From Prorocentrum cordatum (Eukaryota > Sar > Dinophyceae > Prorocentrales > Prorocentraceae), in contig CAUYUJ010014604.1 of assembly GCA_963575745.1 (NCBI GenBank), positions 1,062,284 to 1,126,283 of the forward strand: a stretch of 64,000 nt of DNA. The letters are read 5' to 3'. Positions 41,031 to 60,454 of the stretch are shown in pieces. The notes below the pieces were generated by a model. The model had not been told where the DNA came from. It saw nothing but the letters and a program-made list of their open reading frames with translations, and did no database searches. Both the position numbers and the translations under genes were made by a program. The first letter of the stretch is position 1; the number at the start of each line of letters is the position of its first letter.

Positions 41031-41034
41031 CGCC

Positions 41035-42070: not shown

Positions 42071-42111
42071 CCCCAGGGACGCCCGAGCTGTTCAACTTCG
42101 ACGAGCTGTTC

Positions 42112-42210
42112 ACCCACGGTGTGCGAACCCCAGGCTCAGCACACCGTGGATGTAATCCACGGGTTCACGTTAGTCTCTTGTCTATGGCGGACATCAGCGC
42201 GTGCCAGAGG
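42112..42210. other. Palindromic hairpin and PPR relict
   Basis: CACGGTGTG.. pairs with CACACCGTGG as at 7829-7868, and CCGTGGAT (42144-42151) with ATCCACGG (42155-42162) makes an 8-bp stem with a 3-nt loop. It is followed by a degenerate PPR lead-in (VIHGFTLVS) and ISACQRG. Confidence 0.6.
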
Positions 42211-42875
42211 GGCAAAACAGCGCATGTGGATCAATGCGCCCCCTGGAGGGCAATTTTTCGACACCTCTCACGAAGATCCTGGCTCCCGAGCGTCACAAAT
42301 CGAGTCCTCCGCCGAAAGACGCGCCGAAGCGACCATAAGAGGTTCCAAGGAGCGCCCAAGAGGCCCCCTAGAGGCCCCCAACAAGGCCCAAGATGCCTCC
42401 AACAGTCCGCCAGCATGCCCCCAGAGGCCAAACTCCTTTATGTTTCAATGGTTTTTGAAGCAGTTTGCCTTCTCGCATTCTCGGCTAGCCGACGCTCCAA
42501 GACTGCCGAAGAGACCCACAAGACCGCCCCAGGACGGCCCAGCAGGCCTCCAAGCGCGTCTCCAGACGGCCCAGGGAGCCCCGAGATGGCCCAAGAGGCG
42601 CCCAAGACGGCCCCAGTGGACCCAAAACCAGGCCCAAGAGGGGGCCAAGACAAGGGGAACAACCTTGACATTCCGTGCCCTGGGCCCCCATACGCCCACA
42701 CAAGGCCCCAAGACCCCCCCAAGGGAACGCCAAGAGGTCCCCAGAGGCCCCCAAGAAGCCCAAAGCAAACCCCACGAGGCCCCAAGACGGCCCCCAAGAG
42801 GCCCCAAAGCTGCCTCCAAGAGGGACCCCAGAGGCCTCTCAGCCATTACCCAGGCACAGGCACGGTGGCGGATGA
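42200..42875. repeat. Dispersed repeat, copy of 19890-20575
   Basis: See the first copy. It ends at the 88-bp satellite unit that begins GATGACGGGAAGCGCC. Confidence 0.7.
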
Positions 42876-43060
42876 CGGGAAGCGCCTCCGGCGTGCACCG
42901 TTGGTTCAGGGGCTTAATTTTCTCTAACTAAGGGGCACCTCGCTGGCGGATTCCGGAAAATTGCGGAAAAATGGCCGTTTCGCTCGAGACATCCTCGAAA
43001 AATCGGCTCCGGAGGGGACTCCGAACCGGCATTATCTTCGAGTCGTTCCTGGAGGGCTTC
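42868..43060. repeat. Single copy of the 60-kb satellite unit and adjoining dispersed repeat
   Basis: GATGACGGGAAGCGCCTCCG through TTTTCTCTAACTAAGGGG (42870-42935) matches the tandem units at 60180-60440. The following segment (42950-43050), with GTTTCGCTCGAGACATCCTC and CGGCTCCGGAGGGGACTCCG, matches 62318-62400. Confidence 0.75.
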
Positions 43061-43631
43061 AAAACGGCCCCAAAGAGCCCTCAAAGGCCCCGACACGACC
43101 CAAAAGGGCCCCGAAACGGCCCGAGAGGACCTTAAGACAGCCCCAAGAGAGCCCCAGGACAGCCCCAAGAGCCACCCAAGAGGGCCCCAAGAGGCCGCCA
43201 AGAGAGCCCCAAGACGGCCAAAGGCGTCCAAGAGTCTCCAACACGGCCCAACAGGGCCCCAAGACGGCCCAAGAGGGCCCCAAGACAGTCCAAGAGGGCC
43301 CCCAAAGAGCCCCAAAAGGACCACCAAGAAGGCCCATAGACGCCACATGATAGAGCGATCGGTAACGCAAAAAGCTCTCCACACCAAGGCTCACAAGAGC
43401 GACCGGTGACGTGACAAGCTCGTGACATCAAGGCTCCGACGAGCGAACGGTGACGTGAACAATTCTCGACACCAGGGCTCCCAGAGCGAGCGGCAACGTA
43501 AAAAGCGCTTCGCACCAAGGCTCCGAGGACACACCCTCCAGGGACCAAGTTGGCGGCTTTTTCGGCCCAGGACGGCTCCAGAGACCTCCACGACGGCCCC
43601 GGAGCGCTCCAAGAGGTTTCCAAGACGGCCC
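43060..43631. repeat. GGCCC-type array and 45-bp tandem repeat
   Basis: 43070-43340 is a GGCCC-type array. 43349-43532 holds four diverged units of about 45 bp (AGAGCGACCGGTGACGTG..CACCAAGGCTC). The LTR retrotransposon is inserted at 43631/43632 into AAGACGGCCC sequence. Confidence 0.7.
43627..43631 (+). repeat. 5' target-site duplication (GGCCC)
   Basis: GGCCC directly precedes the 5' LTR and directly follows the 3' LTR (60053-60057). The host sequence is rich in GGCCC, so chance agreement is possible, but the reconstructed empty site (AAGACGGCCCCAGAGG) is typical of the host array. Confidence 0.7.
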
Positions 43632-43916
43632 ACTTTAAACGGAGAAGGTTAAAGGCGAGGTATAAATCGAGCATGTACCGCTGCCGTGCCTGGCTCAAGC
43701 CGGGCCCGGCCTAATATGTGACTGTGCCTCACCGAGGCGCACTACTTGCATCAGAGATCGGAAAATCCCTTTTCCATTGACGATGCCCATCCTACTCTTT
43801 ACTCCAGATCCCATGCTTCGTCTCGCTCTCTTGCTCATGCGATATGAGCCAAAGCCTGGGATATGGGAGCGCCTAAGGCGGACTACATACCTAAGCTTAC
43901 CAGCTTGTTTTCGACT
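43632..43916 (+). repeat. 5' LTR
   Basis: 285 bp, ACTTTAAACGG to TTGTTTTCGACT, identical by eye to 59768-60052. It contains TATAAATC at 43661-43668, a possible core promoter. It lacks the usual TG..CA ends. The first plausible ATG of the gag-like ORF (43783) lies inside it, so the LTR contributes the first 45 codons. Confidence 0.92.
43661..43668 (+). promoter_or_regulatory. Possible TATA-like element in LTR
   Basis: TATAAATC lies 29 bp into the LTR. Dinoflagellate promoters are reported to use a TTTT motif rather than TATA, so this is only a candidate. Confidence 0.3.
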
Positions 43917-46900
43917 TGGTAGCGGAGCTGGCTACACTCTCGTGTGGCTGGCTCTCGCTCTGATTCCTGTAATCCACGGCACAACTTGGTGGACTACTAC
44001 TACGGTGGAATACCATGTTGCGCCGGCTCTGCGAGGAGCGGAGCCAGTCCGCGATCGAGCTAGCGGGGTAACCCGCGAACTCGAGACGCTTTCTCCTACT
44101 TCACTGCGCTACTTCACTCCCGACTTCCACCAGATGCCAATCGGCAACTCGATCGAGAACGTGGTCACCCTGCGGGGCTACCCGCAGCGGGGCCACCTGC
44201 ATCCCGTGCCGGTCAGGCGCCTCACGGCTACCACGCCAGAGCCTGACAAACCACAGCCTAAACCAATCACCGAAGCCGAAATGCATATGCATTGGATCAA
44301 GATAACTATCTTCGGCATTCTATGGGTGATAATGGGATGTGCTGTGGGATACATGCGGCAGGGGATGGACGACACGCGTACTACTGGCCCTTCATGGGAC
44401 CCTGCCGGTACTACGCCTTTCCGCGAATACGTTCGCGAAGTACATGCATGGTTAAACGTAACGAGCGGCAATATGACACCACCACAACAAGCTGCAGCAC
44501 TACAACGAGGCCTTCAAGGTCTGGCTCGTCGTATCGCCATGCAGGTCCCCTCCCAGATCATCAATTATGGTGTAACTGTCAATGGACAGCCAACGGATGC
44601 AGTAACCTACATACTGTACTTACTGAGCACCAAATTTGAAAATCTGGAAGATGAGCGCCAGCTCAACTCTGGCACGGCCCTTATCGACTTCCGCGTCGAA
44701 AGGGGCGAGCGAATCGACTCAGTATTAGCTCGATTCGAGATGGCCCGTGACGAGGCTAACTCTGTTGGCTTTGTCATCCCCAACTTTCAGATCCTAACGC
44801 TGATTCTCTTCAGAGCGTTAGGCGTTGGCGCGTCACGAGCCCAACACCTGCTTGAGCCCTTCAATCATCAGATGCCCCGAACACAAGCAGACTATGACAG
44901 GCTGTTGACCAGGATGAGGAACTACGGACATGTTGCCGAGCGCTCTCCTGGTAACATAGCGGGTATCTTCACAGGGCACCACTCACATGCAGGTGTCTAC
45001 GCCACGACTGCGGGGTCACCCGCTGGTCCTGGCGAGCCAAATCCCTGGGCTGACCCAGCCGATATGCCCAACGAGGCCACTGCCCTTCTAGGGCAGACCG
45101 GCCAGGCATCGGCAGAGGCAGCTGAGGCGAACGCCTGGTCGAACTACTCGCCAGGCGCCGCCTACACTGCAAGCCCGCCCTCGGGCACAACCCTCTGGGG
45201 CCAAGCGGAGTCATCCGCTCAATGGTCTCAGCCACCCTCACCGTTTGAATCTGGCACTGACACAGATACCTCATCTGACGATGAGCACAATGGAATAGTC
45301 TCTGCTGGTAATGACTATCCAGCGGATGACACTCACCTTTCTGAACAGCAAAGGGCGGAAGCCGCCTTTATGGCTTATCGCAAATCAAAACGCCGTTGGA
45401 GGCGCTTTATGAAGAAACCAGTCAGAAAGGTGAGACGTGCAGTACGCCGACATTTCAAACAATTTGGAAAGGGTCGTGGTAAAGGGGGTCGCAGACGCCG
45501 TATGCATGGTAGGGGTATTACTGCTTTCCTCACGTCCTTAACTGATATGGCTTTTGAAGAAGTTCTTATCGGAGGCAAAGGTCGGGGTCACAGGCGGACC
45601 TCCGGTAAGGGAAAGGGGCGGAGGGGCAACCCTAGGGACGCTTCTGGTAATACTATGAAGTGTCATACATGCGGTAGCACAGAGCATTTGCGCGATCAAT
45701 GCCCGAAGGGGAAAGGAAAGGGATCCGTACACTTGGCTCAAAATTCTTTTATGGATGACATAGATTACATTGACTACGAGTTTTACGTCAATCCAGAAGC
45801 GGCTCCCGCTGCGGGCTCCTCCACGTATTACGTGATGGCCCGCTATGCTGAAGCAACTGTGGCCCTGGAAGACTACGCAGTGACCCTCTTCGACGAGTTC
45901 CACGGCTGGGACGAGGTCGATGAGATTGCGTACAATGCTTGGTTCGGTCTTCCAGCGGGGCCACCCGCCGGTGACGAGGTCTCCGAAGCCGAGACCGTCC
46001 CGGCAACAGAGGAAGAACTCACCGCCGTGCTGGCCCCACAAGTGATTGGCATGCCGTTGCTGCCAAATCCGTCGTGGGCTGGTTCGGAGATGGGAGACGC
46101 CGATGACGAAATGCGGGGCCATCCCGCGTATTCCGATTCCGAAGAATCCGAAGAAGATTATAACGACATGCTCCAAGGACAGGTTTCAGAAGCAATTCGA
46201 CTCTTGAGTGCGCCAGCACAGCAGCAGATGACGATGAACGAACTGCTGTCACACCCAGGAGTTGCCCGTCTACGTCCATACTTGGATTCGAACATGTCAG
46301 CATCACAGATGCTTACAGCACTCCAAGCTCTAGCGGGGTCACCCGCTGAAGAGATGCCAGACACAACAGCGGGGCCACCCGCTTGGTCTATGGACGTATT
46401 CATGCAAGGTTGTGATCAAATGAACATTAACGACCTCTCGATGGAGCAGTTAAATGACATCGGATACTTCAGAAGCCCTCATCAAAACGTGTTCATGGTC
46501 CAGGACAGCTCAGAGGACTCGGAGGACATGCGTTACGCCAAGAGGGACAGGCGACCGTCGCCTCCCCGAGACTCAGAGCATGACGATCAAAGGCCAATGA
46601 CACGTGGTAGTGCGTCAGCGGGGCCAGCCCGCGGAAGGAGCCGCTCAGCTCCTAGACGCCCTACGCATGATGAAGCGGGCTATCCATACAGTGCTGAGCA
46701 CTCCGTTGGAGTATCTGCTCAGCAGGTGCCGGATTGGTACGTCAGATGGTACCCCGATTACTCTATGGATACTCTTCGGCATTGGTATTCTAAGGAATAC
46801 TGCACCAAAAGGGACGAAACTGGCGCGATAATCCGTACCAAGGGTGGCAAGACCAAGACGCCAGAGGCCTGGGACAAAAGGGCGAAGAAGCAGGAGAGAT

Positions 46901-47121
46901 CATCACTGACCGCAAAACATACAGAAAACAAGTATGTCAGTGTGAGCCCTTCAAAGGCCACATGCGCAGGTGTCCGATGGACCGCCCCTCCAGGAGCCCT
47001 CACCATGGAGAGACCCCGTGGAATTGGTCTCATGGAGACGACGCGGGTAACGTCCATGATCCGAACAAAGAGGTTCCTGGAGGAGGAAAGCGCATCACAG
47101 AGGCCGATCGCGTCCCTATGA
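43783..47121 (+). CDS. Gag-like protein with membrane segments and zinc knuckle
   Basis: About 1112 residues from the ATG at 43783 (MPILLFTPDPMLRLALLL); the frame is open from a TTG at 43777. Residues about 46-71 (YTLVWLALALIPVIHG) and 172-191 (ITIFGILWVIMGCAVGYM) are hydrophobic and could span a membrane, unusual for gag. Residues about 215-390 form a helical capsid-like domain (EYVREVHAWLNV; QLNSGTALIDFRVERGERID; RTQADYDRLLTRMRNYGHV). A basic stretch near residues 530-575 (KSKRRWRRFMKKPVRKVRRA) is followed by a CCHC knuckle, CHTCGSTEHLRDQC (45661-45702). The C-terminus is acidic. Near 46880 the meaningful reading appears to pass to the -1 frame (next ORF). The protein would package the element RNA. 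Confidence 0.8.
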   Translation: MPILLFTPDPMLRLALLLMRYEPKPGIWERLRRTTYLSLPACFRLGSGAGYTLVWLALALIPVIHGTTWWTTTTVEYHVAPALRGAEPVRDRASGVTRELETLSPTSLRYFTPDFHQMPIGNSIENVVTLRGYPQRGHLHPVPVRRLTATTPEPDKPQPKPITEAEMHMHWIKITIFGILWVIMGCAVGYMRQGMDDTRTTGPSWDPAGTTPFREYVREVHAWLNVTSGNMTPPQQAAALQRGLQGLARRIAMQVPSQIINYGVTVNGQPTDAVTYILYLLSTKFENLEDERQLNSGTALIDFRVERGERIDSVLARFEMARDEANSVGFVIPNFQILTLILFRALGVGASRAQHLLEPFNHQMPRTQADYDRLLTRMRNYGHVAERSPGNIAGIFTGHHSHAGVYATTAGSPAGPGEPNPWADPADMPNEATALLGQTGQASAEAAEANAWSNYSPGAAYTASPPSGTTLWGQAESSAQWSQPPSPFESGTDTDTSSDDEHNGIVSAGNDYPADDTHLSEQQRAEAAFMAYRKSKRRWRRFMKKPVRKVRRAVRRHFKQFGKGRGKGGRRRRMHGRGITAFLTSLTDMAFEEVLIGGKGRGHRRTSGKGKGRRGNPRDASGNTMKCHTCGSTEHLRDQCPKGKGKGSVHLAQNSFMDDIDYIDYEFYVNPEAAPAAGSSTYYVMARYAEATVALEDYAVTLFDEFHGWDEVDEIAYNAWFGLPAGPPAGDEVSEAETVPATEEELTAVLAPQVIGMPLLPNPSWAGSEMGDADDEMRGHPAYSDSEESEEDYNDMLQGQVSEAIRLLSAPAQQQMTMNELLSHPGVARLRPYLDSNMSASQMLTALQALAGSPAEEMPDTTAGPPAWSMDVFMQGCDQMNINDLSMEQLNDIGYFRSPHQNVFMVQDSSEDSEDMRYAKRDRRPSPPRDSEHDDQRPMTRGSASAGPARGRSRSAPRRPTHDEAGYPYSAEHSVGVSAQQVPDWYVRWYPDYSMDTLRHWYSKEYCTKRDETGAIIRTKGGKTKTPEAWDKRAKKQERSSLTAKHTENKYVSVSPSKATCAGVRWTAPPGALTMERPRGIGLMETTRVTSMIRTKRFLEEESASQRPIASL
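43917..43931 (+). promoter_or_regulatory. Primer binding site (initiator-tRNA-like)
   Basis: TGGTAGCGGAGCTGG begins at the first base after the LTR. TGGTA followed by the complement of an acceptor stem is the pattern of sites that pair with the 3' end (..UACCA) of initiator Met-tRNA in copia/Ty1 elements. Which tRNA this species uses cannot be checked here. Confidence 0.7.
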
Positions 47122-50100
47122 CCGAAGAGGTGGCCAACACCGCCAGGGAAAATTGGGCAAAGCTTCCCAATGACCACCGCCTCAAGGAATGGAACCGCCG
47201 ATTCCATAAGGAAGCGGGGTCACCCGCAGAATCCAGTAAGGAAGCGGGGTCACCCGCAGAATCCAGTAAGGAAGCGGGGTCACCCGCAGAATCCAGTAAG
47301 GAAGCGGGGTCACCCGCAGAATCCAGCAAGGAAGCGGGGTCACCCGCAGAAGCAGCACCAGCCGCTGGATCTGCGGACGAGTGGATAGACGTTGCCTCTG
47401 CTGCCGGGTCCGCCGCCGGCACTGACCGCACCGAGCTAAATGAAGAGTGGGCGGCGGAAGACGGTTCAGAGAATCCATTCCCTGACGGAAGCGCCTGCTG
47501 GTACTACAGCTCTTCGGCGCAGAAGTGGTTCTGCACGAGGGTACTCTACCGCCATGAGAATGGCAAGTACAAGCTGGCCATAAAGGGTACTGCCGACATC
47601 GACCAGATGAGGCAGGTCATCCATGATCATGGCCAGCCAGAAGGCCCTCCTAGAGACCCTCCTGGTCCACGACCAGGCAAGAGCAGCAGACCACCGCCAA
47701 GACCTAAAGCCGACTCCTCGTCTTCACCGACTCCTGCGAAAAGGCAACCGTCCAAGAGCCCCGAAGGCACACGTGAGCGGGCGAAGGCCAGAGGGATTGC
47801 CAAGACGGACGATCTTGAGCCGGCAGGTCCTCCCGGTCCGTCCGTGACAGAGAGGAAGAAGGCTTTTGCTGGACCATCGACCCCGATGCCGCCGGTGACC
47901 CAAGGCGATGTCAAGGACGAAGCTCGCGACAAGCCTAAGGCAGCTTTCCGAGGTGACTGGACTCCAACTCTGCATCAGCCGCGCCTTGCACCACGACCAG
48001 GTTCGGCACGAATGAAAGCGCAACCAAAGCCCGAAGCTGGGATGAGGTCGGTGCGGGCAGAAGCGGCCGCCAAGGCTAAGGAGGACAAGGGCTCTGCGGG
48101 GCCACCCGCTAAAGCGGCGCCAGCCGTAGCAGCGGGGACACCCGCAGAAGGCACTCTCTCAAGAGAAGAACGCTTCAGAGTCCTCAAAGAGTTTGGCGAC
48201 CAACAGAAACTAACCGATGATGCAGCTGCTGACAAAGGTCACCCTAACCCTGGCGCGGAGTCATCCGCAGGAGCTGCCTCGTCAGCCGCAGGTTCTGGAG
48301 GGCCACCCGTTAAAGCGGCGCCAGCTGCATTAGCGGGGCCACCCGCTAAAGCGCCGCCGGCTGCACTAGCGGGGCCACCCGCACAAGGGCAGCCAATAAT
48401 GTCTGTTCTCAGGAACATCCCTTTGGGAGCCATCGAATACTGGCAAGGCATTGTCGGCAAGGGCCCGAAGCGCACCATAAACCCACGAGTCACTCCAGAC
48501 GATACGGACCGATACGAGGTCATTAATTGTCCGGTTCGTCGTAATTTCAAGTGCCACAACGACTGGGAACGTGAACAACTCACCGTGGGAAACATGCTGC
48601 GAGACAGGCCGCCACTACGCGCTGCGCAGCATAAAGAAGCACTCCTGAAGGTCATGACACAGAACGGCATGGATCCAACCTTGCCGAGTAAAGAGCAGAT
48701 GACCAAGGTGTCGATGTGGTTTTCAACGGCTCTACGCCACAGTCCATATTATAAGGACAAACATAACCGATACTTCGAAAAGGTCAGCACTTTTGATCCA
48801 TACGATGGCTGGGTTGTCGTTGACGATCTGCTGACAAACTGGACTGAAAATGATCAGTATAAGTACTATCGTGAAATGCACGAGGTGCTGATCAAAGGCA
48901 GGCCCCACGCGTCATTCGTGTATTGGGTGCTGCTAAACTGCTGTGAGATGATTGACCATCACGGCATGCAGAAGGGCAGGCTCCAGATGAAGTGCGTTGA
49001 TGACAGCATGCTGCTGCCTCCCAGGTTTCGACCAACGGCACGCAGGCCACAGTACTTCATCAGAGCCACGAACGGCCACAGCAGTCCAGGCATCCACTGT
49101 CCCGAGTCGCTGTACAAGCCGATCACAACATGGATGAAAGAACCAGACGACCCAGTATATTTCATCCACGGGACACAGTGGGAGTATGTCAAGGACATTC
49201 TTGCTAATGGCCTTTCATGCCTCGCACAGGACAACCCGAAGAGGAAGGGGGGGCGCCAATTTGTGCATGGATGCCCCTACCTCCCGGGCGACCCGAGGAT
49301 ACAATCGGGCATCCGTCCTGACTCGGAGGTGCTCATATTCTGCAGCATCAACAAGATGCTGTCCAGTGGCTTCTCTCTATGGAGATCAGCAAATGACATA
49401 GTCATGACACGGGGCCACGACGGACGTATACCGCCCGATCATATCCTCCAGATAGTGAGCATTGCGAAATATCGGGTCGGCGAAGCCTGGAGCAATCCGC
49501 TGTTCTATGACAAGTCGCGGAGGCGGGGCCAACCCGCGGACAGGATTCGCACTGATGACTATCTGCCACTTAAAATGTGTGACAGAACTGTGGCGGTAAT
49601 GGAAGACCACGCCATGTACCTCAAGGGCTGGGCTAAGACGGACGGTCGTCCATTCAATTTGGTCATGACCGAGCAAGATGTTGCTCCACGACCGTACGAC
49701 ACACAGACAGTCCTCATGATGAATGCCCAGGAGGACGAGGTCATGCCTGAGGCGGGGCCACCCGCAGGAGCGGGGACACCCGCGGTAGGCACCTCGGACG
49801 GTTCATGGCAGCAAGTAGTCACACCGGTGGCGACGGTAGCATCTCCTTGGAGGCCGGACCAGCAGTCCTGGGTCCACGCTCTCAACAGCCATTTGACATC
49901 AGCCGACGTTTCTGGACTGACCGATCAGCTATACCGTGCTGACCCGTGGGCGGTGCATGCAGGTATCCAAGACGCACAGCAGAGGAACCTGCGCCCTCCT
50001 GCGGGGCCACCAGGCGTCCTAGGACCACAACCACAACGCCCTCCACAGCAAGCTGGAGTTGCGAGGTTTGCTCCTATGGGCGGCTCAGATGGTGGCTCGC

Positions 50101-53063
50101 CGTTTCGGACTCCGCCGTCTGAAACGAGCGAGAACAGCCTGTGGCAACGACTCCAGGCGATTCGCGGAAATCCGGCGCTCGCAGCAGCACTCCAGGCGAC
50201 CACTCCCTTTGGCACTCCGAGGGGTAGTGAAGGAGGAGTGGCTGCGGGGACACCCGCCGAGCGAACGCCTGCGGAGTCATCCGCACACGCGGGGCCACCC
50301 GCTGACGGACAGCAAGGTTCAGACTACGAACGTCGGGCAGCCAACTTGAGAGCACAGGCTACCTTTTTGCAGCAACAAGCTGATAGAGTGCCCAGCCTGT
50401 TGCGGAACCGCAACATAGATGTTACGAACCATGGCGACTTTCGGCCTCTCTGGAGCTGGACTTCTGATGACGCTCCAAATGCTGATCCCACGAATCCATA
50501 TCGACAGGTGTTTATTCCAGGAATAGCATCACACCCAATATATGGATGGGATAATCATGGACCAGCAGAGGCACAGGCCATGGATGCGCCGATGTACCCG
50601 GAGTACTACGCGCAGGTGAATAACACTCCTATGATTGCGGGGCCACCTGCGAACGAATACACTCGGAATCTGGCCAATGAGATGTTTCGTTTGCAGTATA
50701 CACGAGCAGTCGATGCGCAGTCTATGCCGCACTACGCCTACATGCCCACGCCGACGGACCCCGAGACCGTAGTTCAGCCAGCTGGTCTCGCGGTGCCAGC
50801 CGCTCTGGGCAGCATGCCAGACTACATTCGCGACGTGCACAACACGCAGCAAGCGATACTGGCATCTAGGCAGCAGGCTCGGGACAACGCTAGGCTGCGC
50901 CAACAGCGCGCGATCCAGAGAAGGATCGAGCGTGACAACCAAGCGGGGACACCCGCAGGCGCGGGGCCACCCGCTGAACAGACAGATAGACTGCCACCAC
51001 CGACGCCATATCGGGAGGGCGAAACTACCTTCGAGCGTCAGGCTCGGACTCGCCCCGACGTGCCTACTCCAGTCATTTCAGATTACAATTTCACACAGTG
51101 CCCAATCTGTATGGACCCCTACGAGATGGGCACCACGGTGTGGAGACTGGCGTGCGGGCACTTCTTCCACGATATATGCTGGGATCGTGTTGCACAGCAG
51201 CACGTCCGCAATCAGCGGCCAGGTGCGCCAAACGAGGCACCCTGCGCTGTATGTCGTGGGCCGGGCATAATCACAGCACATTTTCCGTATGCTGGACAGC
51301 GCGACGCTGAGTCGGAACAGGCGCGCCAGCAGGAAAGATACGTGGTGGATGCTCGGGAACTGCGTCGGCTGCGGGAAGCAGTGGAGGCACTAGAGGCTCG
51401 AGCCGCCTCGGCGGAGCCATCCGCACGTGCCCCAGCTGCACAGACACACCCCTGGCCAGCGCCAGAGCAAGGCATCCAGATGCCGATCCTGCCTACGCTT
51501 CAAGCACAGGGGCCCCCAGCAGCGGGGCCACCCGCCGAAGCGACTCCCGCCGCCAAAGCGGGGCCGCCCGCCGAAGCGGCTCCTGCCGCCAAAGCGGGGT
51601 CACCCGCAAATGGACCTCCGAATCCGGGATTCCTGAGGGCAATGGAGGCCAATATTAGGCGGAGTGGCAGGAGCGGAGGCGGATCCAGAACCTCACGTGT
51701 AGAGAGCCCGGTAAGCGCTAGAAGCCGGGCCAGTGCTGAAAGCGCGGAGGCAGCCCAATTCCACAATACCTTCATGATCAACACGGAAGGGCTGACCTAC
51801 ACACGTGACGTCACGGATACGCTTCCGCCAGGAGGTGAGTGGACCTCCACACTCTCTGCGAATTATTGGGTTCTTGAACAGGAACCAATTACCGTGGAGG
51901 AGCGCCGCCAATATGAGCAAATATGGTGCACCGAGCTAACAATGAGCCAGTGGGTGCTGGAACAACGCCTACTGAAAGGCACGCTCGGTTCACAGATTAC
52001 GTACCATACTGATGACCATGGTACGATGGCTCTGGCGGCGCGGACAGGGACATTCTTCCCCGACGAAGACGGAATGCCCTGCATATCGTTCATGCTAGAC
52101 ATTGGCTCCAACGTGAACATCATCGGAGCTAATACAGCACGAACCTTCCAGGAGGTTATGGCCAGGTACAATCACAGACCGGCCATATGCACACTGAGCA
52201 AAACCCTCTACATCAACGGTGTCGGTGAGGGTGCTGCGATCTGTCGGAAAATGGGCAACTTCAAGATCGGGGTGCAATACGCCAATGAGGCAAGCCCCCG
52301 CATCGAGGAGTATGCTTCCAACATCGCAGAGGGCTCAGGTGCAAACCTCCCAGCCATCTGGGGCCTGGGCGCCATGGAAGCACGTGACACAATCATCGTG
52401 CTGAAGCCAGGCTTCCAGAAGGTTATCTTCCCCAGCGGAGATTATACTCTTAAGCTGGGGAAGGGCGCCAAGGTCCTGAGGGCGAAGAAAACCCCCTCAG
52501 GACATCTAGCCATTCCATGCGGGTTGTATGACGGGGCTAAAAGCCAGACGGTCACGAACACCTTTACAATCCGCAGTAGTCGCGATGGCTACACCGAGAC
52601 GGAGAACGACGAGGACTCCGTCAATGCGGGGTCACCCGCCGGGGTTAGTGCGGGGCCACCCGCCGAGACCACAGCGGGGCAACCCGCAATGGGACAGTCC
52701 CTGACCGTTACGACTGATGCGTACATTGTCGAGCCGTATCTCGACAAGCAGCTCCTGGAAGACACGACCCGTGCGATCGTGGACAGGACGCTGAACAGCT
52801 GGTGGGAAGGCCAACAGTGTCCTGAAGGGACCTGGCCACACATGAAGGATGCCCTGAAGTCTAAGATATTCTGGGCAGTCCAGGAGGCGGTGAATAAGTG
52901 GACGCCTGAGAACCAAGCGGGGTCACCCGCGACACCGCCACCACCACCAAGCTGCACGGGCGGAGGTTCGTCGGACTCTGCGGGGCCAACCCGCGTGGAG
53001 ACTGTGAGCGTAGCCGCACCAGTGACTCCTGCGGAGCCATCCGCTAACAGCATGCCCCTCTGA
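46794..53063 (+). CDS. Polyprotein block: Tpt1-like, RING-H2 and aspartic protease domains
   Basis: The first ATG is at 46962, but the frame is open from 46794 and reads a Cys/His cluster (VCQCEPFKGHMRRCP) before that ATG, suggesting entry by -1 frameshift from the gag-like ORF. About 2033 residues follow the ATG. Residues 84-130 carry AGSPAESSKE repeats. Residues about 580-846 resemble RNA 2'-phosphotransferase Tpt1/KptA: LRH (48732-48740), DGWVVVDDLL, FIRATNGHS (Arg 49062-49064), FIHGTQWEYVKDILANGLSC and SGIRPDSEVLIFCSINKML (Arg 49314-49316), so the Arg-His-Arg-Arg catalytic set is present. Residues about 1378-1434 are a C3H2C3 RING (CPICMDPYEMG..CGHFFHDIC..CAVC). Residues about 1700-1830 contain the aspartic protease motif FMLDIGSNVNIIGA (Asp 52098-52100). 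It ends at UGA 53061-53063. Confidence 0.82.
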   Translation, partial: GILHQKGRNWRDNPYQGWQDQDARGLGQKGEEAGEIITDRKTYRKQVCQCEPFKGHMRRCPMDRPSRSPHHGETPWNWSHGDDAGNVHDPNKEVPGGGKRITEADRVPMTEEVANTARENWAKLPNDHRLKEWNRRFHKEAGSPAESSKEAGSPAESSKEAGSPAESSKEAGSPAESSKEAGSPAEAAPAAGSADEWIDVASAAGSAAGTDRTELNEEWAAEDGSENPFPDGSACWYYSSSAQKWFCTRVLYRHENGKYKLAIKGTADIDQMRQVIHDHGQPEGPPRDPPGPRPGKSSRPPPRPKADSSSSPTPAKRQPSKSPEGTRERAKARGIAKTDDLEPAGPPGPSVTERKKAFAGPSTPMPPVTQGDVKDEARDKPKAAFRGDWTPTLHQPRLAPRPGSARMKAQPKPEAGMRSVRAEAAAKAKEDKGSAGPPAKAAPAVAAGTPAEGTLSREERFRVLKEFGDQQKLTDDAAADKGHPNPGAESSAGAASSAAGSGGPPVKAAPAALAGPPAKAPPAALAGPPAQGQPIMSVLRNIPLGAIEYWQGIVGKGPKRTINPRVTPDDTDRYEVINCPVRRNFKCHNDWEREQLTVGNMLRDRPPLRAAQHKEALLKVMTQNGMDPTLPSKEQMTKVSMWFSTALRHSPYYKDKHNRYFEKVSTFDPYDGWVVVDDLLTNWTENDQYKYYREMHEVLIKGRPHASFVYWVLLNCCEMIDHHGMQKGRLQMKCVDDSMLLPPRFRPTARRPQYFIRATNGHSSPGIHCPESLYKPITTWMKEPDDPVYFIHGTQWEYVKDILANGLSCLAQDNPKRKGGRQFVHGCPYLPGDPRIQSGIRPDSEVLIFCSINKMLSSGFSLWRSANDIVMTRGHDGRIPPDHILQIVSIAKYRVGEAWSNPLFYDKSRRRGQPADRIRTDDYLPLKMCDRTVAVMEDHAMYLKGWAKTDGRPFNLVMTEQDVAPRPYDTQTVLMMNAQEDEVMPEAGPPAGAGTPAVGTSDGSWQQVVTPVATVASPWRPDQQSWVHALNSHLTSADVSGLTDQLYRADPWAVHAGIQDAQQRNLRPPAGPPGVLGPQPQRPPQQAGVARFAPMGGSDGGSPFRTPPSETSENSLWQRLQAIRGNPALAAALQATTPFGTPRGSEGGVAAGTPAERTPAESSAHAGPPADGQQGSDYERRAANLRAQATFLQQQADRVPSLLRNRNIDVTNHGDFRPLWSWTSDDAPNADPTNPYRQVFIPGIASHPIYGWDNHGPAEAQAMDAPMYPEYYAQVNNTPMIAGPPANEYTRNLANEMFRLQYTRAVDAQSMPHYAYMPTPTDPETVVQPAGLAVPAALGSMPDYIRDVHNTQQAILASRQQARDNARLRQQRAIQRRIERDNQAGTPAGAGPPAEQTDRLPPPTPYREGETTFERQARTRPDVPTPVISDYNFTQCPICMDPYEMGTTVWRLACGHFFHDICWDRVAQQHVRNQRPGAPNEAPCAVCRGPGIITAHFPYAGQRDAESEQARQQERYVVDARELRRLREAVEALEARAASAEPSARAPAAQTHPWPAPEQGIQMPILPTLQAQGPPAAGPPAEATPAAKAGPPAEAAPAAKAGSPANGPPNPGFLRAMEANIRRSGRSGGGSRTSRVESPVSARSRASAESAEAAQFHNTFMINTEGLTYTRDVTDTLPPGGEWTSTLSANYWVLEQEPITVEERRQYEQIWCTELTMSQWVLEQRLLKGTLGSQITYHTDDHGTMALAARTGTFFPDEDGMPCISFMLDIGSNVNIIGANTARTFQEVMARYNHRPAICTLSKTLYINGVGEGAAICRKMGNFKIGVQYANEASPRIEEYASNIAEGSGANLPAIWGLGAMEARDTIIVLKPGFQKVIFPSGDYTLKLGKGAKVLRAKKTPSGHLAIPCGLYDGAKSQTVTNTFTIRSSRDGYTETENDEDSVNAGSPAGVSAGPPAETTAGQPAMGQSLTVTTDAYIVEPYLDKQLLEDTTRAIVDRTLNSWWEGQQCPEGTWPHMKDALKSKIFWAVQEAVNKWTPENQAGSPATPPPPPSCTGGGSSDSAGPTRVETVSVAAPVTPAEPSANSMPL
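47211..47350 (+). repeat. 30-bp in-frame tandem repeat, four and a half units
   Basis: Units at 47211, 47241, 47271, 47301 and partial 47331 encode AGSPAESSKE. Each contains one GCGGGGTCACCCGC mini-hairpin. Only one base differs among units (47327, C for T), so the expansion is recent. Confidence 0.95.
51097..51262 (+). other. RING-H2 finger region of ORF B
   Basis: Cys pair CPIC, Cys and His in ACGH, His in FFH, Cys in DIC, then CAVC after 26 residues: the C3H2C3 order of RING-H2 ubiquitin ligases. It sits between the Tpt1-like domain and the protease. Confidence 0.85.
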
Positions 53064-53099
53064 CGGGGGCAGGCGGGCGCGCCGGCGGCGCTCGCTTGC
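53061..53099 (+). promoter_or_regulatory. Probable UGA readthrough signal
   Basis: The two ORFs on either side are in the same frame and separated only by UGA at 53061-53063. The next codon is CGG, and bases 53069-53080 pair with 53088-53099 in a 12-bp stem (two G-U pairs, ten Watson-Crick) with a 7-nt loop, starting 5 nt after CGG begins. UGA-CGG followed closely by a stem-loop is the known type II readthrough context. Readthrough would add the integrase/reverse transcriptase block to a fraction of products. Confidence 0.75.
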
Positions 53100-56000
53100 G
53101 AAGAGAAGCCGAATACCGGCCTCCTCGCGACATACGTTGGCCGCGCTGAGGCCCGAGAAGAAAAATATCATTCAAAATGCCTCGTCATCGAAGATATTCG
53201 CACAGCTTGCGCTGAACTCCGAACCCGTGGATATATATGCGACCGGATTACCCATAATGAGGTAATGACTTCAACTGGAACACAGTATTTGGGAAATTTG
53301 TTGGCAGGAGACTACAATATGTTGTGGGTGGCCACACCCTCTGATTGGTACGTGCGTACTCCAGGAAAGAGGGCGGGACCACATTATCAACGTATACAAA
53401 ATCTCCTGATCAAAGCGCGTGCTCTGAGAATGCAGATAGTTATCCTGGGGCCACCCGGGTATTTCTGGAAACAGGGTCCGATCAAAGATGTTATCGAAGA
53501 TTTGAAGCTAAGCGTTATACGAATCAGACTCTGTCATTTCGGTATTAAGTTTGACCGATCCAGTAAATATCCCAGTGGTTCTTATATACAAGTTGCTACA
53601 TCTTGTCCTCATATACCGATAAACTTATGGAAATGTACTTGTGGATCACACAAGGAGCATGATTTGGATTGGTATGGCCAAGATCAGCAACGTGCCGAGT
53701 TTCGGTATAAAACTTTGGCTATTATTATTGCACGCTTCCTTGATCAACTCGATAAAGCCAACATGATCAGGAATGAGCGGAGTGCGGTACACCTCAGTGT
53801 GTGTACACGCGTTGACAAAAAGGTCAGACACTACGTTCAATGTCCACAAAAGGGCCCTCAATGGGACCATGTGGTTCGTAGGGTCACGACCGACCTGGAC
53901 ACGAACAAGATCGTTCAAGACATTAGAATCCAGGATCAGCCAACTGGGTACAATTATGTAGCTCCATTACCTGATGGGGTTACAAACATCAGTACTCGGC
54001 TATACTGGGAGCCTCCGGCTCCAGTTCTTCATGGCAATGGTGAGTCGCGAAGGCCACGCCCAAAGCGTGTGACGATCGTCGACGACGATCGATCTCCTCC
54101 CCCTTCGATTGAGCGTTGCCAAACGCGACCCACCAACAACCTTCCTGAAATTCCGCCATTTCCTGATTTTACAGCGGATTCCTCCGCAGCGGATCTCTCC
54201 GCGGAAACTGCGTTGCCCACTGATGCCAGGATAAAACAGAAAGAAAAGCAGAAAGCTGACAAAGAAGCCGGCATCAAACCGAAGAAAGTCCCGAAGAAAG
54301 TGGAAGACGGTAACGACGACTGTGGAGAGGACCTCAAAGGGCTTGACTGCTCCACATATTTCAACGACGTTCCTCTTGACGACTCGGACTCGGACAGCGA
54401 ATCAGAGGACATCTTCATGATGTTACCGGCGGGGCAACCCGCTGACTCACATGCTGATGTCTTCTCGATAGTCCAGTCGTTATGCTACGGCAGAAACAAT
54501 CAAGTGGACATGCTTGAATTATGTGGGGGCAAGGGTGGTATATCCATATTAGCCTTCAAGAGGGGACTCTCGTCAGGCGGGAACCTTGACAAGATATCTA
54601 TGGTTGACCTTGGAAACTCGGAAGTACAAAGAGCAGTCCTCCACTACCTCAAGACTTGCTTTGTCAAGATCACGATTCTGCAGCCAAGTTGCAGAACTAC
54701 TGGACTCCCTTCCTACTTCAACGCACAGGTCAATCATGATACGTGGCTTAAACACCACAAAGAGGACCTGCCTCACATCACGTTCTGTGGAACAGTTGCT
54801 CTATTGCAAGACGACCTAAGACGTTTCTTTCTCAGGGAACAACCAATGGGCACGTGGGTGGATGAGATCCAGCCATGGAAAGAACTGGCACAACGCAAGG
54901 TCACTTGCCAAACAATCATTGATCAGTGCACGACTGGTCTCAAAGATTCATTTGGACAATACATCCGCAAGCCAACACAGATAATGGCAAATAAAGAAGA
55001 GTTGTTGGCACCTTTCAGAGGCAAGCGTTGTCCAGGAAATCATGTGCACGCCAATGCTTGTAACAAAGAGCTAGCAAGGGCGGCACAGTATACCTACAGA
55101 ATGCAGTCACTGATCGTTGATGCGGTGCAAATCGCCAAAGACCTGTTTGCTTACGGTCGCGATCCATTCGCGAATCGTGAACGCAGCTATGCGTTCGTAA
55201 CAAACAGTGCTGGCTACGACTTGGACGACCCAACAATCCGGAGACACCCAAACGGAGAAATCTGTCGACCACCACCTGGCGGTCTTGGGTGCCCTGGCTG
55301 TGTGGACAACAACTACAAGCAATCACCAAAGCACAGTAGGGATCCGAAGATGTGTCGGTGGTATGATGTTGAACCGTATTACTGGGACTGTCCAAGCTGT
55401 AAGAAGGAATATCAGAAGAGCAATCCTCACCACACCAAGATATCTGGCCAATGCAGATTCGCCGAAAAATGGAAACTGCCAGATAACTTTGGCCAGCCGC
55501 GTCCGGCGGGGCAAGCCGCTCCTGCGGCGCCAGCCGCGGAAGCGGCTCCAGCCGCAGAAGCGGCGCCAGCCGCAAAAGCGGCGCCGGCCGCAAGAGCGCG
55601 CATACGCGCGCCTCGGCCGCCACGGCCTGGTGAGGGCGATCCAACCGCAGGCGCCAGCAGCCATGACATCACCAGAGCTGACGGGGCTAATGGTGGCAAC
55701 AGTGGCGCTGGCAGCTCTGACGATCACCGTAGACTGCCACAAGTTGCAGCAAGGCGCGGACGCATGGAGGGAGGAGATCCTCCACCACCGCCGCAGCCTC
55801 AAGCAGAGCCGAGGCCAAGGCCAAGGCTCCCTGATTGGACTCGCTTCGACGTTCAGCTCAGCCTCCAAAACCTGCGCAGCTTCGACCCAGCTGTAGTGCA
55901 GCGAGAACTCCGCAAACTCCACCTGAGATGGTTTCATGCCAAGGAGCCAAAAATGCGGATGATTCTAACCAAGGTTGGTCTGGGTGAAACCCGTTTGAGT

Positions 56001-59000
56001 CTGATCAAAGGCATTTGTGACTCGTGTAGAGAATGTCGAGCCTGGGACAAACCAGGCAACACGGTGATGCCTTCTGTGTCACTGCCAGGACGTTTCAACG
56101 AGGAAGTCGAATGTGATCTTTTCTTTTACAAACAGGAACATATTGTTTTTCACATCATCGACCGTTGTATTCGCTGGGCAGCTGGCACAGAGATTCCTGA
56201 TAAAGCCATGCATACTGTTCTCGATGCCTATCATACGACTTGGATGCAACATGGCCCTGCTAAAATCTTATACTCCGATGGGGAAGGAGCACTGAATAAT
56301 GATACAGCAAAGGCCATCCTTAAGGCTAAGGGAACAGAGCTTCGTATTCGAGCGCGTGGCCAACACGCTACAACTATCGAAGCTAGGAACGGCATCCTGC
56401 GACACCTCCTACACGTGATGGGAGAAGAATTGAATAGATTAAATATCCCTCTCAATTTCACTCGTCTCTTACATGAAGCCTTGTTTGCCAGCAACGCATT
56501 TACCTTCTACAATGAAGTGTCTCCGTACAATGCGCTGTATGGCAGACAACCAGCTATGCTTCCTGATTTCCCTGTCTTGGATCATGATCAGCCCACTGAA
56601 TCATCAGATCACTCAAGGGAGGAAACAATCAGGAGGGTTAGTCTGGAGGCAATCACGCAGGCCACTGCGGTTGCCAAGACGAACAGGGCTCTCCGTACAA
56701 AGACTACTGCTACGGGTGAATTTCACTATAAAGAGGGAGATCTCGTGGACTATCATCGCCCGACCACCACGAAAGACGACTGGGGTGGATGGAGTGGTCC
56801 ATACCCGGTCATCCGCAACGAACCTGACCGAGGCCAGGTCATCGTGAAGGTCGGCAATCGCGAAGTACGAGTACAGTATCCTGACACACGACACACACTG
56901 TACATCGAAGCACTTATGGTCCGCGAGATAGGATCGGACAATACGGCCCTTCGAACAGTATTGGCCTTTATTGCCGGTCTGCCAGCGGGGAAACCCGCCA
57001 TGACTTTCGGATATCTACCAACGAAACAGGGTCGGCTGCAGATGACTGCTGCGAGCCGACTTTCACCTAAGGTGCACTTGGCTCTTCAGTACCTCATACG
57101 CAACTACTTTCGTATTGAAAACGTTGTTGCTGTACGACTCGCCAAGAGCCTGACGAAGTTGCCTGCTGCACCCTATGCAGACAGCTGTACACTAGTGCAC
57201 TATGATAACGATGTGACCCCTGGGTTTCATTACTACGAAGCTGATGGCACTGCCTTGAACATCTATGACATCACAGGATCCACACACTCACGCATCATCC
57301 AGTGTCTTAAATCCAGGAAGCCGTCTGCTGGGTTTGACCAAGACCTCACTAAGTTTGAGGAACTCGCTGATGGTCCACCACCAAGCGAATCACCTCCAGC
57401 AGCTGCTCCTGAGGAGCCTCCTACGGACAACGATGGTCGGCTCCCGACCATCATAGAGGAGACAGAAGAAGATCTGGATGCTTTTGTCTTGAAGTCGTGG
57501 TATGCTGAACTGATGGATGACAGAACACTCCTTGAAGCTGACACAGAGGAAGTCATGCATACAGTTCCTACATACATGACAGACACACAGTGTGTGTTAG
57601 TCTCTACGACCTGTGAAGATGTGCAAGGCCACTTGCCGGAGCGGGGTCACCCGCCAGGATACGACATGGACACTTCTTACTACGTTCCTTTATGCTCCAC
57701 GGAACCGGATAGCAAATATGATCTGGACTCCGATGAGCACGGGAAGTATATCGAGCTCTGCTTCACTGCAGACATGTCCAAAGTCGTCCTGTCCGAGCAG
57801 CAACACCGACTGTTGGATGACAGCAGCGTCACAACTATGCGAGTATACGTTAGCGCTGCCTCCAAACGTGCCGTGGTCGTCAAGGAAGACGATCTACTCA
57901 CGAAGGCCGACATCCAAGCAAATCCGGTCAAAGTTTCCAAAGCCCTCTACACAGAACTGAAGACTTGGCTTGACAACAAATGCTTCCAGATGACTGACTT
58001 AAGCAAGGCGTCTAACATCATGACGTCACGCTACGTATACAAATGGAAGTTTGTCAAGAACGAAAAGGGCGAAATGGAAAGGACGATCCGGTTACGCTTG
58101 GTACTCCGTGGCTTCATGGACCTCGAAGCCTTTGATGTCGAAACCTTCTCTGGCACGGCAAGGAGGTCAAGCCAGAGACTGCTCGCAAGTTCTGCTGCAT
58201 GCAACAAAGCTTGGATCATCGCTTCCCTGGACATCAACATGGCTTTCTTGAAGGGACTGACCTATGGCGAGCTCGCCGCGGCAACGGGCGAGAAAGAGCG
58301 TGTGGTGTGCTTCACACTACCACCTGGGTCAGCAGCTGTCCTTCGCACACTGCCAGGCTTTGAGTCATATGACGAATCAAAGCATTGTCTCCGGTGTCTG
58401 AAACCGGGGACGGGCACGAAGGATGCTCCCAGGGCATTCTCGCTGAAGCTCAGGTCCATCACTAGGAGCTTTGGGCTACAGCCTACTTCATACGACGAAG
58501 AATTCGAGATGAGCCCAAACCTCTTGACAGCCAAGCACGTTGATGACATCAATATGACTGGGAAGGAAGAGGCTATTGACAAGTATGTCAAGTGTGTTGA
58601 AGATACGTTTGGGAAGTGCAAACTGAACAAGCACACATACACGAACTGTGCTGTTCGGTACAACAAGACCGATGATGGGAGCGTCACTCTCGATCAGGAC
58701 GAATACATCAAACAGCTTCGTCCTATCACACATCCAGAACTCACAGGAGCTGATCCTGAAAGCAAGGCGACGAAGACAATTTCTGATATGTTCGTCAGTC
58801 TTCGTGGCGCTCTAGCCTATGCGCTGATTACGCAGGTATGGCTAATGGTCTATGTTGTCTCACTACAACGTATCCAAGAACCGACAAACATCCAGGTACG
58901 ACGACTAAACGCGGTTACCAGAAAGCTACAGGCAGGTCCGAAGAAGATCGTGTATCAAGCTATGACCCCAACAGGAGAAGTCGACCTGCATAGCGATTCT

Positions 59001-59663
59001 GGCTATCGTCGTCTCAACGGAGATGAAGACGACGAAGTCAAAGGCTATGGTATCCGCGGGGCTAACCTGCTGAGGCGTGGCCACACGCAAGCGGGGAAAC
59101 CCGTCGTGCACCTGGTGGACGCATACTGCAAGTCTCATCGACTGCAGGTGCGTTCGAGCTACTCTGCGGAAACACTGGCAGCAGCCCACAACTTGGAAGA
59201 CTGCTACCCGACCATTGTAACGCTCCACGAGCTACACTCGGGACCATTGACCCCCACACAGTTAAAGAACATATTGGAAATGGGTGGTCTATGTATCAAA
59301 GTCACTCTGACTATTGATGCCGAGTCTGTCTTCAAGTCTTTGTCTAGCAAAGATCTGAAGAAGCCCACAGAATGTACTCTGCTTGGGCACATCAGCTGGA
59401 TCCGCCAGATGATGGAACGCGGAATCGTGGAAAGCGTCCAATGGTGTGACACGCGGGATATGACTGCCGATGGTCATACCAAAGGTAGCATTGACCGCGC
59501 GTTGCTCCTACAAGTAATGGCCGGCCAGCAATCCTTCAAGCACGAGCTGAAGAAACATACGCCGTATAGGGCGGGCAGGTCGTCTCAGGACGGCCCTGCC
59601 TCCCGAGCCAGCGGGGAAACCCGCGGGCAGGTGCGCTTTAGTAGCGAGGAAACTCGCCGGTAG
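53064..59663 (+). CDS. Copia-type pol: methyltransferase-like fold, integrase, reverse transcriptase, RNase H
   Basis: Open from the base after the UGA; the first ATG is at 53265, but protein-like sequence (CLVIEDIRTACAELRTRGYI) precedes it, favouring readthrough. Counting from 53265 (2132 residues): residues about 414-560 look like a Rossmann methyltransferase fold (DMLELCGGKGGISILAFKRG; ILQPSCRTTG); residues 675-740 contain CxxC zinc pairs (CPGC, CPSC). The integrase has a His/Cys zinc region (LHLRWFHA..CDSCREC) and D-D-E residues at 56115, 56277 and 56379, spaced 54 and 34 codons. The reverse transcriptase shows SLDINMAFLKG (Asp 58230) and HVDDINM (58542-58547). RNase H acidic residues are at 58995, 59169 and 59316, plus DMTADGHTKG. 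It ends at TAG 59661-59663. Confidence 0.9.
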   Translation, partial: RGQAGAPAALACEEKPNTGLLATYVGRAEAREEKYHSKCLVIEDIRTACAELRTRGYICDRITHNEVMTSTGTQYLGNLLAGDYNMLWVATPSDWYVRTPGKRAGPHYQRIQNLLIKARALRMQIVILGPPGYFWKQGPIKDVIEDLKLSVIRIRLCHFGIKFDRSSKYPSGSYIQVATSCPHIPINLWKCTCGSHKEHDLDWYGQDQQRAEFRYKTLAIIIARFLDQLDKANMIRNERSAVHLSVCTRVDKKVRHYVQCPQKGPQWDHVVRRVTTDLDTNKIVQDIRIQDQPTGYNYVAPLPDGVTNISTRLYWEPPAPVLHGNGESRRPRPKRVTIVDDDRSPPPSIERCQTRPTNNLPEIPPFPDFTADSSAADLSAETALPTDARIKQKEKQKADKEAGIKPKKVPKKVEDGNDDCGEDLKGLDCSTYFNDVPLDDSDSDSESEDIFMMLPAGQPADSHADVFSIVQSLCYGRNNQVDMLELCGGKGGISILAFKRGLSSGGNLDKISMVDLGNSEVQRAVLHYLKTCFVKITILQPSCRTTGLPSYFNAQVNHDTWLKHHKEDLPHITFCGTVALLQDDLRRFFLREQPMGTWVDEIQPWKELAQRKVTCQTIIDQCTTGLKDSFGQYIRKPTQIMANKEELLAPFRGKRCPGNHVHANACNKELARAAQYTYRMQSLIVDAVQIAKDLFAYGRDPFANRERSYAFVTNSAGYDLDDPTIRRHPNGEICRPPPGGLGCPGCVDNNYKQSPKHSRDPKMCRWYDVEPYYWDCPSCKKEYQKSNPHHTKISGQCRFAEKWKLPDNFGQPRPAGQAAPAAPAAEAAPAAEAAPAAKAAPAARARIRAPRPPRPGEGDPTAGASSHDITRADGANGGNSGAGSSDDHRRLPQVAARRGRMEGGDPPPPPQPQAEPRPRPRLPDWTRFDVQLSLQNLRSFDPAVVQRELRKLHLRWFHAKEPKMRMILTKVGLGETRLSLIKGICDSCRECRAWDKPGNTVMPSVSLPGRFNEEVECDLFFYKQEHIVFHIIDRCIRWAAGTEIPDKAMHTVLDAYHTTWMQHGPAKILYSDGEGALNNDTAKAILKAKGTELRIRARGQHATTIEARNGILRHLLHVMGEELNRLNIPLNFTRLLHEALFASNAFTFYNEVSPYNALYGRQPAMLPDFPVLDHDQPTESSDHSREETIRRVSLEAITQATAVAKTNRALRTKTTATGEFHYKEGDLVDYHRPTTTKDDWGGWSGPYPVIRNEPDRGQVIVKVGNREVRVQYPDTRHTLYIEALMVREIGSDNTALRTVLAFIAGLPAGKPAMTFGYLPTKQGRLQMTAASRLSPKVHLALQYLIRNYFRIENVVAVRLAKSLTKLPAAPYADSCTLVHYDNDVTPGFHYYEADGTALNIYDITGSTHSRIIQCLKSRKPSAGFDQDLTKFEELADGPPPSESPPAAAPEEPPTDNDGRLPTIIEETEEDLDAFVLKSWYAELMDDRTLLEADTEEVMHTVPTYMTDTQCVLVSTTCEDVQGHLPERGHPPGYDMDTSYYVPLCSTEPDSKYDLDSDEHGKYIELCFTADMSKVVLSEQQHRLLDDSSVTTMRVYVSAASKRAVVVKEDDLLTKADIQANPVKVSKALYTELKTWLDNKCFQMTDLSKASNIMTSRYVYKWKFVKNEKGEMERTIRLRLVLRGFMDLEAFDVETFSGTARRSSQRLLASSAACNKAWIIASLDINMAFLKGLTYGELAAATGEKERVVCFTLPPGSAAVLRTLPGFESYDESKHCLRCLKPGTGTKDAPRAFSLKLRSITRSFGLQPTSYDEEFEMSPNLLTAKHVDDINMTGKEEAIDKYVKCVEDTFGKCKLNKHTYTNCAVRYNKTDDGSVTLDQDEYIKQLRPITHPELTGADPESKATKTISDMFVSLRGALAYALITQVWLMVYVVSLQRIQEPTNIQVRRLNAVTRKLQAGPKKIVYQAMTPTGEVDLHSDSGYRRLNGDEDDEVKGYGIRGANLLRRGHTQAGKPVVHLVDAYCKSHRLQVRSSYSAETLAAAHNLEDCYPTIVTLHELHSGPLTPTQLKNILEMGGLCIKVTLTIDAESVFKSLSSKDLKKPTECTLLGHISWIRQMMERGIVESVQWCDTRDMTADGHTKGSIDRALLLQVMAGQQSFKHELKKHTPYRAGRSSQDGPASRASGETRGQVRFSSEETRR

Positions 59664-59767: not shown

Positions 59768-60052
59768 ACTTTAAACGGAGAAGGTTAAAGGCGAGGTATA
59801 AATCGAGCATGTACCGCTGCCGTGCCTGGCTCAAGCCGGGCCCGGCCTAATATGTGACTGTGCCTCACCGAGGCGCACTACTTGCATCAGAGATCGGAAA
59901 ATCCCTTTTCCATTGACGATGCCCATCCTACTCTTTACTCCAGATCCCATGCTTCGTCTCGCTCTCTTGCTCATGCGATATGAGCCAAAGCCTGGGATAT
60001 GGGAGCGCCTAAGGCGGACTACATACCTAAGCTTACCAGCTTGTTTTCGACT
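59768..60052 (+). repeat. 3' LTR
   Basis: Identical by eye to the 5' LTR with a constant offset of 16136 bp. It repeats the first 45 codons of the gag-like ORF, which here run into host repeat sequence. Confidence 0.92.
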
Positions 60053-60450: not shown

Positions 60451-60454
60451 GAAA

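Follow-up and report, generated by a model that had tools for sequence, protein, structure and literature searches.

Why should a retrotransposon encode an enzyme of RNA repair? The question is raised by a stretch of 64,000 nucleotides of the dinoflagellate Prorocentrum cordatum (contig CAUYUJ010014604.1, positions 1,062,284 to 1,126,283; the window), which holds a recently inserted long terminal repeat (LTR) retrotransposon with three open reading frames (ORFs). ORF2 contains a Tpt1/KptA RNA 2'-phosphotransferase domain with its Arg-His-Arg-Arg tetrad and a predicted two-lobed fold, and a diverged relative, P0002, shows the domain beside the same neighbours. It appears that a mobile element has adopted an RNA-repair enzyme. 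We tentatively propose that a copia-type LTR family took up a eukaryotic-type Tpt1 as a permanent component of its polyprotein, with a role in the removal of 2'-phosphates; to this statement as a whole we give a little under an even chance.

Identity of the Tpt1 domain

The first-pass annotation, made from the letters of the window, had recognised Tpt1 motifs and placed the four catalytic residues at Arg 48735, His 48738, Arg 49062 and Arg 49314. Reading of the codons finds motifs and residues at these positions (Table 1), the correspondence of the tetrad residues being taken from the motifs and not from superposition of structures. The identification also holds under profile search. PF01885, whose curated cut-off is 26 bits, matches the whole of ORF2 with E 6.1e-16 and 59.4 bits over positions 5-177 of its 177, and an excised portion of 300 residues with E 5.3e-18 and 66.1 bits. 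With phmmer, tRNA 2'-phosphotransferase 1 of human (E 2.8e-13) and of mouse (E 4.2e-12) are matched, and the only solved chains that match by sequence at E <= 1 are the human, the mouse and, more weakly, the yeast Tpt1.

Structure prediction points the same way. A model built from 48 sequences, with a predicted local distance difference test (pLDDT) score of 76, is predicted to combine a winged-helix RNA lobe with an ADP-ribosyltransferase NAD lobe, as in Tpt1/KptA, and all 21 PDB matches that Foldseek gives for this model at E <= 0.001 are Tpt1/KptA chains. It replaced an earlier model (9 sequences, pLDDT 53.7), whose matches were likewise headed by Tpt1. We regard the assignment of the domain to Tpt1/KptA as almost certain. 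According to the accessible part of PMC6333775, the Arg-His-Arg-Arg tetrad of this enzyme is essential and engages the 3'- and 2'-phosphates of the junction, and the HGT motif binds NAD+.

That the domain came from bacteria or archaea was considered and is disfavoured, on scores and nearest chains and not on a rooted tree: the equivalog model for bacterial RNA 2'-phosphotransferase, NF002014, gives 24 bits against its cut-off of 239, and the nearest solved chains are mammalian.

The element that carries the domain

The LTR retrotransposon setting put forward by the first-pass annotation is borne out by the identical 285-bp LTRs, by the GGCCC at either end, by a CCHC motif upstream of the domain and by an RVT_2 reverse transcriptase (E 2.3e-10) downstream of it. 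The proposed place between gag and protease stands as well, with the refinement that Tpt1 lies in ORF2, in a frame separate from that of the gag-like ORF1, and that a RING finger precedes the protease-like region. Since the LTRs are identical over 285 bp and GGCCC is found on both flanks, the insertion of this copy is recent. The element is 16.4 kb long and none of its three ORFs has an internal stop.

RVT_2 is the mark of copia-type reverse transcriptases, and in ORF3 the integrase motifs lie upstream of the reverse transcriptase; the integrase region is named by motif, with no Pfam match and no solved structural relative. The element is a copia-type LTR retrotransposon, young and apparently intact. 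Because no polypurine tract was found directly before the 3' LTR (in the stretch 59708-59767, the 20 bases just before 59768 include 17 pyrimidines), we leave formal membership of the Pseudoviridae aside and use the copia-type label. The LTRs have the ends ACT...ACT, not TG...CA. The putative primer binding site, TGGTAGCGGAGC, resembles the complement of the 3' end of an initiator tRNA-Met. No further copies of the element were found in the rest of the window by tblastn and blastn (E 1e-3, default filters).

Relatives and conservation

Three protein searches, which reach only relatives with common short words and similar length, gathered 56 related proteins: 40 labelled by EukProt as Pyramimonas, where contamination is possible, 6 P. 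cordatum proteins and 10 on other contigs (9 ena, 1 jgi) that are presumed to be environmental. Pyramimonas belongs to the green algae, Prorocentrum to the dinoflagellates. Within that reach, no relative is named as a cellular eukaryotic Tpt1. Pattern matches to the Tpt1 domain numbered 27 in viral contigs and 27 in bacterial or archaeal contigs, and the reverse transcriptase had one in viral contigs; none of these was confirmed.

P0002 is an ORF of 1627 amino acids on a contig of 5678 bases and carries Tpt1 (E 5.3e-17), a RING finger (E 1.4e-8) and a protease-like region in the same order as ORF2. The RING finger, which lies between Tpt1 and the protease-like region, is 52% identical in the two. 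Eight further proteins (P0007, P0010, P0014, P0030, P0039, P0050, P0052 and P0056, four of them from Pyramimonas) are similar to the stretch of P0002 downstream of Tpt1. Because of the neighbours in P0002 and this downstream similarity, Tpt1 is to be seen as part of a polyprotein that characterises a whole family, not a single copy. The first-pass annotation had named two things that would speak against it, the lack of a significant profile or structural match to Tpt1 and absence of the domain from all other copies. The profile and fold matches are significant, and further copies and other sources do contain the domain.

The same evidence bears on the idea that a cellular Tpt1 gene or pseudogene was inserted into, or assembled onto, a single copy of the element. 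The recurrence of the neighbours in other sequences leads us to reject such an accident: they stand on another contig in P0002, and the eight proteins share the downstream similarity. The continuous ORF of 2033 amino acids within identical LTRs also argues against it, and we give it next to no chance.

Among the rows covering each position (numbered as in P0001), Arg46 is kept in 10/10, His47 in 10/10, Arg155 in 25/26 and Arg239 in 36/41; six of the ten N-lobe rows, those that cover Arg46 and His47, are from P. cordatum. Three relatives cover all four tetrad positions; P0002 and P0007 keep all of them and P0008 has Cys for Arg239. The 50 rows from outside P. cordatum have, over 289 positions, a mean identity of 0.44 to the residue of the window. 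In these rows a ranking of the 289 positions by conservation puts R46 and H47 (4 rows each) in the top 20, R155 in the top 24 and R239 in the top 61. Several Pyramimonas rows look decayed, which counts against a functional domain. Tpt1 is quite probably a selected, functional domain of the element.

Possible functions of the domain

Since the RNA lobe and the phosphate-gripping tetrad are both kept, the substrate to which they point is a phosphate on RNA, and RNA as substrate fits the residues kept in the RNA lobe. On the proposed reading, the Tpt1 protein would be made, cleaved out of the polyprotein and carried in the particle, and with NAD+ it would take 2'-phosphates off the RNA template or the tRNA primer of the element. 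That these are the substrates is possible, if somewhat doubtful. The 2'-phosphates could be left by cleavage and ligation, or could be a modification. If not removed, they would hinder reverse transcription; a 2'-phosphate hinders reverse transcriptases, and an undamaged template and tRNA primer are what a reverse-transcribing element needs. A 2'-phosphate left by cleavage and ligation also stops Xrn1, as stated in the accessible part of PMC6456296. If a family keeps Tpt1 across diverged copies, the substrate should be the template, the tRNA primer or nucleic-acid ends, and the question can be tested.

Several points weigh against a role in 2'-phosphate removal. The activity, expression and substrate of the domain are inferred, and the role presupposes a source of 2'-phosphates, such as a dinoflagellate ligase that leaves them. 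The full order of Tpt1, RING and protease is found in two sequences only (the window and P0002), most other relatives being fragments. As the relatives are protein sequences, conservation is judged at the protein level. Of the 32 relatives that have a residue at the His of the HGT motif, 11 carry a different one (8 Arg, 2 Tyr, 1 Leu), though many rows look like decayed copies, and this His ranks only 116th of 289. Finally, at E <= 1 the NAD lobe is matched by none of the six annotated P. cordatum proteins that carry the Tpt1 N-lobe (P0003-P0006, P0012, P0057).

These P. cordatum gene models are the most similar annotated proteins, with up to 99% identity across the shared part. As the NAD lobe is missing, the third and fourth tetrad residues are missing from them too, and the window is so far the only place where a complete P. 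cordatum Tpt1 protein is found. P0003 and P0006 leave Tpt1 at a shared splice donor, between CCCAG and GTTTCG (window 49024/49025), and resume within the protease-like region, where the AG sites used are 52165 and 52177 (acceptors within 52165-52178). P0003 also joins a stretch from the end of gag (HWYSK, window 46780) straight to the Tpt1 N-lobe. Errors of gene prediction, real introns and deleted copies are all possible sources of such structures. If the splicing is real, its product lacks the NAD lobe and the RING finger.

The changed HGT His and the missing NAD lobes are what would be expected if the domain were a passenger, captured and kept for its fold, for instance for RNA binding, with catalysis dispensable; that the activity is predicted only agrees with this too. 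The tetrad, however, is well conserved, as its ranks indicate, although the HGT His is not, and we think a passenger improbable.

A different reaction, also with NAD+, deserves attention. Instead of removing 2'-phosphates, the domain could cap the decapped RNA of the element, or DNA 5' ends, with ADP-ribose. Human TRPT1 attaches ADP-ribose to 5'-monophosphate RNA, which is then neither translated nor degraded by XRN1 (PMC9458441, accessible part); an archaeal KptA mutant has been solved with 5'-p-ADPR-DNA (9lda, by its title); and among solved chains the domain is closest to mammalian Tpt1. By stopping translation and decay by Xrn1, an ADP-ribose cap would take genomic RNA away from protein synthesis and direct it to packaging and reverse transcription. 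We nevertheless consider capping unlikely: the tetrad that grips the 2'-phosphate is kept and agrees no less well with the classical reaction, and Pfam scans of the three ORFs and six stretches reveal no domain that reads or erases ADP-ribose. A broader form of the idea, which we hold to be quite improbable, makes NAD-based marking of RNA a step run by the element. Tpt1 would cap decapped genomic RNA (or cDNA or primer ends) with ADP-ribose, the RING finger would ubiquitinate ADP-ribosylated targets, and the capped RNA would leave translation, escape 5' exonucleases and be committed to packaging. If this is true, no earlier retroelement known to us makes ADP-ribosylation of nucleic acids part of its life cycle.

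The RING finger, present in the same ORF in both sequences of full architecture, could also belong with Tpt1 to a module of conflict with the host. Tpt1 would repair RNA cut by host defence nucleases, much as RNA repair roles have been proposed for KptA in phages and in RNA-virus polyproteins (PMC9503650, accessible part), or Tpt1 and RING together would mark host or element targets for ubiquitin. Pfam scans of the element find no ligase or cyclic-phosphate enzyme that would go with such repair, PADLOC has no matches for the Tpt1 domain or ORF2, and the targets to be marked are hypothetical. RING fingers are, moreover, common protein-binding modules. We judge a host-conflict module to be rather improbable. 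Removal of 2'-phosphates from template or primer is the reading that we place first.

Expression and other features

Table 1. Features of the element, in window coordinates
Feature	Position	Strand	Remarks
Left target site duplication, GGCCC	43627..43631		5 bp; matches right copy
5' LTR	43632..43916	+	285 bp; 0 differences from 3' LTR
ORF1, gag-like	43783..47121	+	First ATG within 5' LTR
Putative primer binding site	43917..43928	+	Directly 3' of 5' LTR
CCHC motif in ORF1	45661-45702	+	Motif; Pfam zf-CCHC E 0.003, below cut-off
ORF2	46962..53063	+	2033 aa; ATG to UGA 53061-53063; frame open from 46794; order Tpt1, RING finger, protease-like region
N-terminal extension of Tpt1	48411..48704	+	Similarity in P0002, P0007, P0004
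Tpt1/KptA domain (PF01885)	48705..49415	+	ORF2 aa 582-818; E 6.1e-16; predicted fold matches
Tetrad Arg 48735 and His 48738 (ALRH)	48735..48740	+	Codons read
Third tetrad residue, Arg of FIRATNGHS	49062..49064	+	Codon read
HGT motif of NAD lobe	49167..49175	+	Motif read
Fourth tetrad residue, Arg of SGIRPD	49314..49316	+	Codon read
RING finger, C3-H2-C3	51099..51254	+	Pfam zf-C3HC4_2 E 5e-7, zf-RING_2 E 7e-7, zf-RING_11 E 1e-6, all above cut-offs
Retropepsin-like protease region	52029..52565	+	DIGSN at 52098; name based on motif and place; 37% identical in P0002
UGA between ORF2 and ORF3	53061..53063	+	Same frame both sides; then CGG and 12-bp GC-rich stem (region 53061-53150)
ORF3	53265..59663	+	2132 aa; integrase motifs, RVT_2, RNase H-like motifs
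Integrase motifs (HHCC; D, D, E)	55920-56390	+	Motif only
RVT_2 reverse transcriptase	57975-58754	+	Pfam E 2.3e-10, 41 bits, cut-off 31.6
RNase H-like motifs	58980-59327	+	Motif only
3' LTR	59768..60052	+	285 bp; identical to 5' LTR
Right target site duplication, GGCCC	60053..60057		Matches left copy

Two heptamers lie in the overlap of ORF1 and ORF2, and neither combines a perfect -1 slippery sequence with the correct phase. The UGA that separates ORF2 from ORF3 is a possible site of stop-codon read-through, as its sequence context suggests: a UGA with CGG and then a GC-rich stem behind it resembles read-through contexts. The stem is no more stable than its shuffles (z -0.32). The protease-like region has no Pfam protease match. 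In ORF3, LELCGGKGG (54513-54539) looks by eye like the S-adenosylmethionine-binding loop of a methyltransferase and has no Pfam match.

A 14-nt hairpin, with a perfect 5-bp stem starting GCG and a 4-nt loop, occurs 50 times in the element (44063-59676) against 7 times in the other 47.6 kb, and its form GCGGG-4nt-CCCGC occurs 32 times, always within the element. Codon-shuffled ORFs contain a mean of 0.36 such hairpins and a maximum of 3 (200 shuffles). The hairpin starts in codon phase 0 in 41 of the 50 cases, mostly in AGxPA-type linkers; AGxPA peptides are also present in P0002 (8) and in P0010, P0014, P0020, P0039, P0050 and P0052. By stem, 32 are GCGGG, 7 GCGGA, 5 GCGGC, 2 GCGAG and 4 of other types, a variety that is no independent proof of covariation because the scan required perfect stems. 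The pattern suggests that a small hairpin is spreading through the linkers of the element. Rfam gives no matches at gathering scores over 43000-61000.

GC-rich imperfect repeats surround the element (40040-43333 and 60056-62502), many of them CCAAGACGGCC-like and spaced at 21 nt, and the target GGCCC is common there. A tRNA-Pro (TGG) gene is predicted at 4037-4114 on the + strand.

Comparison with known systems

The enzyme and the kind of element are both known. Since a search of open-access titles and abstract starts gave, among the matches listed, no description of Tpt1 in a retrotransposon (subscription journals and preprints being outside its scope), we take the combination as one not found described. 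The accessible parts of PMC9503650, PMC5890265 and PMC11453091 contain no Tpt1-bearing retrotransposon, and that of PMC9503650 does not use the word "retrotransposon".

With TRPT1/Tpt1/KptA, of which the nearest solved chains are from mouse and human (7yw2, 7yw3), the domain shares the profile, the tetrad, the HGT motif and the combination of RNA lobe and NAD lobe. By contrast with TRPT1 it sits in a retrotransposon polyprotein and has a conserved N-terminal extension, and it is longer than PF01885 by about 60 residues (237 residues on 173 profile positions). Over the aligned structure, which on our side is predicted, it is 28% identical to mouse TRPT1.

With Ty1/copia elements (Pseudoviridae; PMC8515867) the element shares identical LTRs and RVT_2; its putative primer site, which resembles one for initiator tRNA-Met, and the candidate integrase motifs before the reverse transcriptase also recall them. 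It differs from them in its size, 16.4 kb against 4 to over 9 kb (PMC8515867), in the Tpt1 and RING domains between gag and protease, and in having no polypurine run.

Captured enzymes are not new to the retroelements of dinoflagellates. DNA methyltransferases are carried by retrotransposons of dinoflagellates and charophytes (PMC5890265, accessible part), but the carriers there are long interspersed nuclear elements and DIRS-like repeats with Gypsy-like domains, and the enzyme acts on cytosine in DNA.

Tpt1 is likewise found in viral genomes: KptA is reported from phages, sawfly baculoviruses, Bodo saltans virus and RNA viruses, and lies inside a polyprotein in Botrylloides leachii nidovirus and Beihai picorna-like virus (PMC9503650, accessible part). 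LTR elements are not among the carriers named there, and that part of the paper mentions no RING partner. When the predicted fold is searched against viral proteins, the top matches are giant-virus, nidovirus and baculovirus proteins. The KptA-bearing RNA viruses do without reverse transcription, and the other KptA-bearing viruses have DNA genomes. The capture of Tpt1, described for DNA viruses and RNA viruses, now extends to reverse-transcribing elements.
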